A DNA stretch of 64,000 nucleotides from Chitinophagales bacterium (GTDB lineage: Bacteria; Bacteroidota; Bacteroidia; Chitinophagales; CAIOSU01). This document shows, one piece after another, positions 62,754 to 63,664 of the stretch (positions within the stretch are counted from its first letter, which is position 1; each line of letters begins with the position of its first letter). The DNA is taken from positions 1 through 64,000 of the forward strand of contig JAGYJT010000016.1 of assembly GCA_018401955.1 (NCBI GenBank), written 5' to 3'. Under the pieces are notes generated by a model. It had not been told where the DNA came from, did no database searches, and saw only the letters and a list, made by a program, of their open reading frames with translations. The position numbers and the translations under genes are program-made.

Positions 62754-63002
62754 AAACTTACACCAGCTTAAGTGTCGCAAAATAACAAAATCCTTACAAT
62801 CAATGAATATATTATGCCCTAGCTTCACACAAAGTTATACTGTAGTGTATAGTGTGTTAAACAGTTGCATCAGTACGGGTAGTTTTTTAACCTAATAAAT
62901 AGACAGTAGGGTGCATATATCGTGCCCAAAAGTTATCAACAAACGGAAAATTACCGAGGAAAAAGGTTGCCTTTTGAAAACTGCTTTCGTACCTTAGTTA
63001 TA
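62754..63002. other. Upstream part of the long intergenic region
   Basis: About 250 nt without a gene between the ankyrin gene and the candidate RNA. Near its right end a TTG at 62967-62969, 20 nt before TACCTTAG (62990-62997, 7 of 8 to TAnnTTTG), could be the promoter of that RNA, with start near 63003. Confidence 0.45.
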
Positions 63003-63269
63003 CTTACAATTGAAGGTAATTACGTTCTTTTATATAAACTTCTAGACGCTTCGCGTCGGCCCACTCGGTATAATTTTTTTGGTTCGAAAGCTTAACATTT
63101 TATCATATGGAGACCGGTTTGCGTTGGCTATGGCGGGCCCGAATCAATAACCTCGGTTATTGACTCTCTTTTTGAGACAACGGGATTACAGAACCTGAGC
63201 AGCTCCTCCAACCCTGATTTACAGAGGTTTTTTCGAAAACCCTTGTTATGCTGTGTGGGCTTTTTTTTG
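63003..63269 (+). ncRNA. Candidate structured non-coding RNA
   Basis: Found in a 599-nt gap between two minus-strand genes. A long-range helix joins 63059-63074 (GCCCAC-U-CGGUAUAAU) with 63245-63260 (GUUAUGCUG-U-GUGGGC): 15 pairs with one U-U mismatch, directly followed by eight T (63261-63268). A hairpin GACGC-TTC-GCGTC stacks on its 5' side (63045-63057). Inside, GGTTCGAAAG (63081-63090) can pair with TTTTTTCG..AACC (63230-63241), or this arm can form its own GGTTTT-TTCG-AAAACC hairpin. Another perfect hairpin, TCAATAAC-CTCG-GTTATTGA, spans 63144-63163. The layout (closed ends, internal bubble, T-tract) is like 6S-type RNAs, but no conserved sequence of 6S, tmRNA, RNase P or SRP RNA is recognised. 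Confidence 0.55.
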
Positions 63270-63298
63270 ATCACAATTTCAGTCCCTTATAATTGAAA

Positions 63299-63330
63299 AA
63301 CGCCCCATTACAGCTTTGTAACGGGGCGTT
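63299..63330. terminator. Bidirectional terminator after the small lipoprotein gene
   Basis: AACGCCCC pairs with GGGGCGTT; after one A-C mismatch TTACA pairs with TGTAA around a GCTT-type loop. T tracts stand on both strands. It ends the minus-strand lipoprotein gene and would also stop any read-through from the candidate RNA. Confidence 0.85.
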
Positions 63331-63352
63331 TTTGTATATTTTTAAGGATGCC

Positions 63353-63664
63353 TTATTGGCACGCTACATTAGGGTCAGCCATTAGTTTTTTCATTTCTGC
63401 TTCAAAAGCCTTTTCGGCCTCACTTCCTTTGGGGTACTTCTCTTGCAGCCCGGCCATGAAAGTTTCCATCTCCATACTGTGCGATTTCAAGTCTGCCGCA
63501 GCTAAGGAGTCTCCAGCTTGCGCTTTTTTGCCCAGTTCCATTCCTTTGCAAAGGTATTGTTTGGTTTTAGCAACGTCTGCTTCTAGGGTATCGGCTTCGC
63601 CACAGCTGGTAAACATTAGGGTAGCACACAATATTGCCAATGATAATTGAATGATTTTTTTCAT
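63353..63664 (-). CDS. Small uncharacterised lipoprotein
   Basis: A 103-residue predicted lipoprotein (signal MKKIIQLSLAILCATLMFTSC, lipobox MFTSC). The mature part is helical and acidic-basic (EADVAKTKQYLCKGMELGKKAQAGDS, MEMETFMAGLQEKYPKGSEAEKAFEAEMKKLM) with two further cysteines, one at the end (NVACQ). No family is recognised. Confidence 0.75.
   Translation of the reverse strand: MKKIIQLSLAILCATLMFTSCGEADTLEADVAKTKQYLCKGMELGKKAQAGDSLAAADLKSHSMEMETFMAGLQEKYPKGSEAEKAFEAEMKKLMADPNVACQ

Follow-up and report, generated by a model that had tools for sequence, protein, structure and literature searches.

A plus-strand RNA gene of a Chitinophagales bacterium, probably a divergent 6S RNA, links the Bacteroidales-1 and 6S-Flavo families

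The 64-kb window analysed here, i.e., positions 1 to 64,000 of a contig of a Chitinophagales bacterium, carries a segment (63059-63268, plus strand) which is, with a probability of about 0.9, the gene for 6S RNA in this Bacteroidota genome, where it occurs as a single copy, with a proposed role in sequestering the RNA polymerase that contains the primary sigma factor and with proposed release by pRNAs. 6S RNA is a small RNA restraining the main RNA polymerase of a bacterium, and is a global regulator. The comparisons presented below show homology of the segment to the Bacteroidales-1 and 6S-Flavo RNAs, a covarying rod, and a free-standing gene with a promoter of its own; the mechanism is borrowed from other 6S RNAs and would be the same here. 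The RNA is thus of a known kind, diverged past the curated profiles.

The gene lies in a 599-nt gap (62754-63352) between two minus-strand genes, an ankyrin/TPR gene on one side and a small lipoprotein-like ORF on the other, with the C-terminus of der/EngA beyond the ORF. The lipoprotein-like ORF (63353-63664, minus strand) codes for 103 amino acids without a Pfam match and stays beside the RNA gene across the genus. Between the two there is a strong hairpin with a T run on both strands (63299-63335, AAAAACGCCCC...GGGGCGTTTTT), which looks like a two-way terminator. The original prediction, made from the letters of the window, described a closing helix of 15 pairs with a single U·U mismatch (63065/63254) ending in T8, an 8-bp hairpin with a CTCG loop, a second hairpin, GGTTTT-TTCG-AAAACC, and a promoter-like TTG-N20-TACCTTAG, all of which are present in the sequence, the helix also in its fold (Table 1). 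The segment folds at -64.4 kcal/mol (z = -3.29), a value equalled by 1 of 200 dinucleotide shuffles; as an argument against chance, the comparative evidence is stronger than these single-sequence statistics.

Table 1. Features of the RNA gene and its upstream region (positions in the window)
Feature	Position	Strand	Basis
Promoter, Bacteroidota type (TTTG / TAnnTTTG): TTG 62967-62969, 20-nt spacer, TACCTTAG 62990-62997	62967-62997	+	Genus comparison
boxA-like leader motif ACGTTCTTT	63022-63030	+	Recurs in distant homologs; function inferred
Small leader hairpin GACG-CTTCG-CGTC, just 5' of P1	63045-63057	+	Present in 5/5 genus members
P1 closing helix, 5' arm	63059-63074	+	Fold; covariation, 98.9% of cells paired, 29 sequences
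P2, 5' arm (partner 63230-63236)	63084-63090	+	Covariation: A3 89%, A4 77% paired; formable in 29/29
Central bubble, 5' strand, with conserved TTAACA	63091-63108	+	Unpaired stretch conserved in A3/A4
P3, 5' arm GGAG (partner CTCC 63206-63209)	63109-63112	+	A4 covariation
Apical stem: P4, P5, conserved loop GGCGGGC/GATTACA, variable apical hairpins	63124-63197	+	Core of RF01693 match; P4, P5 covariation
P4 pairing	63124-63128, 63131-63132 with 63189-63190, 63193-63197	+	Covariation
P5 pairing	63138-63141 with 63181-63184	+	Covariation
Apical 8-bp hairpin, CTCG loop	63144-63163	+	Sequence, fold; homologs differ in its length and sequence
P3, 3' arm CTCC	63206-63209	+	A4 covariation
Central bubble, 3' strand, with conserved AAnCCTGATTT	63210-63229	+	Conserved unpaired stretch
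Alternative local hairpin GGTTTT-TTCG-AAAACC, excludes P2	63226-63241	+	Local fold -6.5 kcal/mol, z -1.5
P2, 3' arm; sits within local hairpin 63226-63241	63230-63236	+	Covariation
P1 closing helix, 3' arm	63245-63260	+	Fold; covariation as for 5' arm
T8 tract 3' of P1, presumed transcript end	63261-63268	+	Sequence; most homologs have T runs after P1

The structure was tested on an alignment of 12 homologs from the genus and the order (A3), on which five helices, P1 to P5, were drawn by hand and then counted. In A3, 91.9% of cells are paired and 21 of the 31 pairs show changes on both sides. These figures count sequences and not events, three of the genus members hardly differ from one another, and the sequences counted are those on which the helices had been drawn. 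The covariation score of 0.573 compares with at most 0.192 when the structure is slid, and was reached by none of 500 shuffles; for P1 alone, 98.1% of cells are paired, with both-side changes in five of nine pairs. The Rfam model RF01693 had served to gather the seven homologs that do not belong to the genus, and since its structure line leaves P1, P2, and P3 unpaired, the covariation of these three helices does not stem from the collection step. An alignment of 29 sequences (A4), fitted to the covariance model R1 described below and hence biased towards the structure, gave 91.4% of cells paired, both-side changes in 28 of 31 pairs, and a score of 0.767 versus at most 0.157 when slid. P1 is paired in 98.9% of its cells there, with both-side changes in eight of its nine scored pairs, and P3 in 94.8%, with such changes in all four pairs. 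The original prediction had named arms of the closing helix varying without compensation as the observation that would speak against it; in the homologs, the arms vary with compensating changes.

About 30 sequence-by-pair cells of P1 in A4 are G·U pairs, which would read as A·C mismatches on the opposite strand, and the RNA is therefore the product of the plus strand. Since both neighbours of the 599-nt gap are minus-strand genes, it is a leader of neither, as had been proposed, and the covariation of P1 together with the genus-wide promoter bears out a free-standing structured RNA gene on the plus strand. Its overall plan, found by covariation on both the 12 and the 29 sequences, is a rod composed of a closing stem, a central bubble, and an apical stem, with a core of 206 nt, the expectation for the 6S class being about 160-210 nt. 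The internal loop GGCGGGC/GATTACA (63132-63138, 63184-63190) of the apical stem shows a degree of conservation that is unusual among 6S RNAs.

At the gathering thresholds of Rfam, no match was found anywhere in the 64-kb window, in accordance with the earlier statement that the RNA is not tmRNA, RNase P RNA, or SRP RNA. With permissive filters, RF01693 (Bacteroidales-1) matches the segment over the whole model with 36.7 bits (E = 1.5e-4), i.e., below its curated cut-off of 60 bits, so that the segment is not filed as a curated member, and its core features, GGCGGGC/GGATTAC with P4 and P5, are all present. Such sub-cut-off matches were found in all five genomes of the genus and in several of the order, those with E > 0.1 (L013-L020) being left out. 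No match to RF01685 (6S-Flavo; cut-off of 85 bits) was found in the genome of the window at E <= 0.001, and none to RF00013 at E <= 1; the latter profile also misses the control Bacteroides ihuae. A match to RF00013 is helpful but not defining for the 6S class, because Rfam places divergent 6S RNAs in other families. The original view that the RNA is not 6S by any known signature is thus correct for the curated profiles only (no match to RF00013 or RF01685, and a match to RF01693 that stays under the cut-off). The 6S-like role offered there as a first guess is supported by the homology to Bacteroidales-1 and 6S-Flavo RNAs, the covariation of P1, the promoter kept in the genus, and the zapA synteny in relatives. 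Because every curated profile falls short, annotation pipelines will miss 6S RNA in the order of the window. The segment also gave sub-threshold matches to SSRC41, tsr31, trpB, PyrR, and other Rfam models; these were rejected, their E values being near chance and most of them lying mainly on the T tract and the next terminator.

The relation between the two curated families was addressed with R1, a covariance model built from the 12 order sequences only, which includes no 6S-Flavo and no over-cut-off RF01693 sequence. Among 296 genomes across the phylum it matched 18, at one place per genome, with E between 3e-10 and 1.5e-5 for the others. Curated members of RF01693 and RF01685 are detected at E from 3e-6 to 3e-10 (7e-8 to 3e-6 for the curated 6S-Flavo members). 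When the R1 places were scanned with Rfam, two proved to be strong members of RF01693 (166.6 and 184.4 bits), five were members of 6S-Flavo above the cut-off (94.3-115.9 bits), and five matched both families below the cut-off. Independently of R1, a single place in genome G148 matches 6S-Flavo with 96.8 bits and RF01693 with 38.3 bits, and one in genome G344 matches them with 82 and 30.6 bits, respectively. As R1 detects curated members of both families and single loci match both, RF01693, RF01685, and the window RNA are, on this sequence evidence, one homologous family, with the lineage of the window bridging the two; RF01685 and RF01693 have no common Rfam clan, and uniting them, either as a single family or within one clan, is probably warranted. 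The places matched by both families include the loci L042, L045, L046, L048, and L049, and G148:C23:237557-237721. With a model built from A4 (R2), the RNA was detected in 18 of 40 near relatives, among them every one of the seven members of the family of the window, once each, and 20 of 20 further loci tested were recovered. It gave no match in the remaining 22 relatives, owing to divergence, filter limits, or real absence, and all the genome counts are lower bounds, as no more than a few candidates in each genome are scored by the whole-genome search. Given the bridging position of the copies from this order, a single better model could allow 6S RNA to be annotated in a large part of the phylum.

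The likeness of the window RNA to Bacteroidales-1 RNA (first described in PMC2864571) comprises the end-to-end match, the conserved GGCGGGC and GGATTACA core with P4 and P5, the strand, and the size. The two differ in that P1, P2, and P3 covary in the window RNA and its relatives but are missing from the structure line of the Rfam model, and in that the window leader is longer and carries a boxA-like motif, which is missing in the Bacteroidales copies L041 and L044. With 6S-Flavo RNA it shares the same P1-P5 plan and the boxA-like leader, but the GATTACA loop is altered in 6S-Flavo, whose flavobacterial copies lie between zapA and rny, unlike the window copy. A 6S RNA and its pRNAs have been reported in B. 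thetaiotaomicron (PMC7366714); the identification of that RNA with the RF01693 RNA relies on the title of the family in Rfam itself, '6S-Bacteroidales RNA suggested'.

The gene neighbourhood provides a further link to the 6S class. In two families of the class (f24, and f25, which contains the curated 6S-Flavo members), the RNA is located about 30 nt downstream of the ZapA gene, at the loci where this short gene was read, and the RNase Y gene comes next. In E. coli, ssrS lies 41 nt downstream of zapA, and in such operons of beta- and gamma-proteobacteria ssrS has been reported always to follow zapA (PMC7641849). This common neighbourhood of E. coli and the flavobacterial-type homologs points to an ancient bacterial 6S locus. 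The E. coli RNA (RF00013) also agrees in general plan, with a closing stem, a central bubble, and an apical stem; however, its profile is silent in the genome of the window, R2 is silent at the E. coli locus, and the window copy is not beside zapA. In the genome of the window, zapA and rny are neighbours on a different contig (L118) and have no copy of the RNA between them, and therefore the RNA gene has moved in this lineage. The synteny is absent in the whole genus, where the RNA lies between the ankyrin gene and the lipoprotein and der genes, and in another genus of the same family the neighbours differ again. No report of zapA-6S synteny in Bacteroidota was found in literature that did not cover the main survey of 6S distribution, and no novelty is claimed. 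The order zapA - 6S RNA - rny is seen at loci L046, L049, L050, L052, and L055 (RNA at about 1501-1670), which belong to two families.

Counted against the 6S identity are the lack of a curated profile match at cut-off, the loss of the zapA synteny in the genus, and the failure of R2 in 22 of the 40 relatives. It is nevertheless improbable that the segment is a real homologous Bacteroidota RNA of another function, acting by base-pairing or by titrating a protein through the GGCGGGC/GATTACA loop. The apical loop sequence, unusually conserved for a 6S RNA, the silence of RF00013, and the fact that polymerase binding of the RNA is a prediction would suit such a function, but the homology to 6S-Flavo, the closing stem with its central bubble, the zapA synteny common to the relatives and E. 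coli ssrS, and the absence of any other 6S profile match in the genome argue for 6S RNA. Far less credible is a role in cis, as the leader, trailer, or terminator of one of the adjacent genes: the neighbours are constant within the genus and a T tract follows the helix, but both genes are on the minus strand while the G·U pairs put the RNA on the plus strand, the neighbours change outside the genus, and the lipoprotein gene has a likely terminator of its own (the hairpin 3' of the RNA gene). A chance or DNA-level inverted repeat giving no RNA would agree with the only moderately exceptional fold of the single sequence, yet it is already refuted by the compensatory changes with G·U intermediates in eight of the nine scored pairs of P1 across 29 sequences, as well as by the conserved unpaired core and the family matches, and its probability is negligible.

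If the RNA acts like other 6S RNAs, its transcription would start near 63004, a site deduced from the promoter, and end in the T8 tract, and the transcript would probably be trimmed to about 206 nt. The rod would mimic an open promoter, bind the RNA polymerase holoenzyme with the primary sigma factor, and restrain the polymerase when growth slows. Release would follow from the synthesis of short pRNAs by the polymerase, with one strand of the central bubble as template, and from a refolding of the RNA; by analogy, the 5' strand is likely to be the template region, and a search of the sequence for the pRNA start site gave no convincing signature. The refolding could here be a change from P2 to the local 3' hairpin. 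The mutual exclusion of the two, noted in the original prediction, holds in the window. P2-type pairing is formable in all 29 sequences (mean duplex z of -2.3), whereas the local hairpin, frequent in the order of the window (z of -1.5 in the window itself, reaching -4.2), is weak or missing in the majority of homologs from Bacteroidales and Flavobacteriales. A general switch across the homologs was rejected on this ground, and the switch reading is plausible for the order of the window only. In lactic acid bacteria and in the 6S-1 RNA of B. subtilis, a hairpin arises opposite the 5' central bulge, and refolding induced by pRNA frees the polymerase (PMC8414754); the window hairpin is situated at the matching place, and by this analogy it may serve polymerase release.

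Each of the five genus members has the promoter motif TTG-N20-TAC[CT]TTAG in a similar position and with an equal 20-nt spacing, the spacer sequence having diverged. A promoter scan of 36 homologs was weak overall (median p of 0.35, not significant), and the promoter evidence thus rests on the genus comparison. The leader between the promoter and P1 contains the boxA-like motif, which is kept in several families of the class. Of 56 homologs, 31 have its pattern G[CT]TC[TA]TT in the 60 nt preceding P1, versus 1.6 expected from flanks and 0.9 from shuffles, the counts not being independent, as many loci come from one family, and the pattern having been chosen after the data were seen. The motif is absent in the f24, f28, and f31 homologs. 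Between the 7-mer and P1 there are mostly 16-22 nt in f25; in the genus the distance is mostly 26-29 nt, part of which is taken up by a hairpin of 13 nt (63045-63057).

The motif partly resembles the boxA of rRNA operons, in that some flavobacterial 6S leaders (GTTCTTTAAAA) fit the gamma-proteobacterial consensus GYTCTTTAANA (PMC5725501) and in that, as in rRNA (PMC10250234), it precedes the 5' arm of a long-range helix. It differs from it in preceding a 200-nt RNA, not an rRNA operon, and the second half of the window copy GTTCTTTTATA does not follow the consensus, AANA being absent. The GTTCTTT core is enriched in the leaders, and a 16S leader from the same genus carries AAAGTTCTTTGAAATA. 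In f25, rRNA leaders have GTTCATT[AG]ACAT-like sequences. The GTTCATT variant is also present in three 6S leaders. On the model proposed for the rRNA leader-trailer helix (PMC10250234), it may tentatively be suggested that many Bacteroidota 6S RNAs are made by Nus-modified RNA polymerase, boxA in the leader recruiting NusB/NusE, which would keep the 5' arm of P1 at the polymerase until the 3' arm emerges. The boxA-like leader is the part of the analysis considered new and is unproven; it offers a way of testing whether the biogenesis of 6S RNA is linked to the rRNA antitermination machinery, to which, if the suggestion is true, the output of 6S RNA would be tied. A NusB-family protein is encoded in the genome of the window, and an rRNA leader with GCGTTCTTTGATAG is present in a genome with an over-cut-off RF01693 member.
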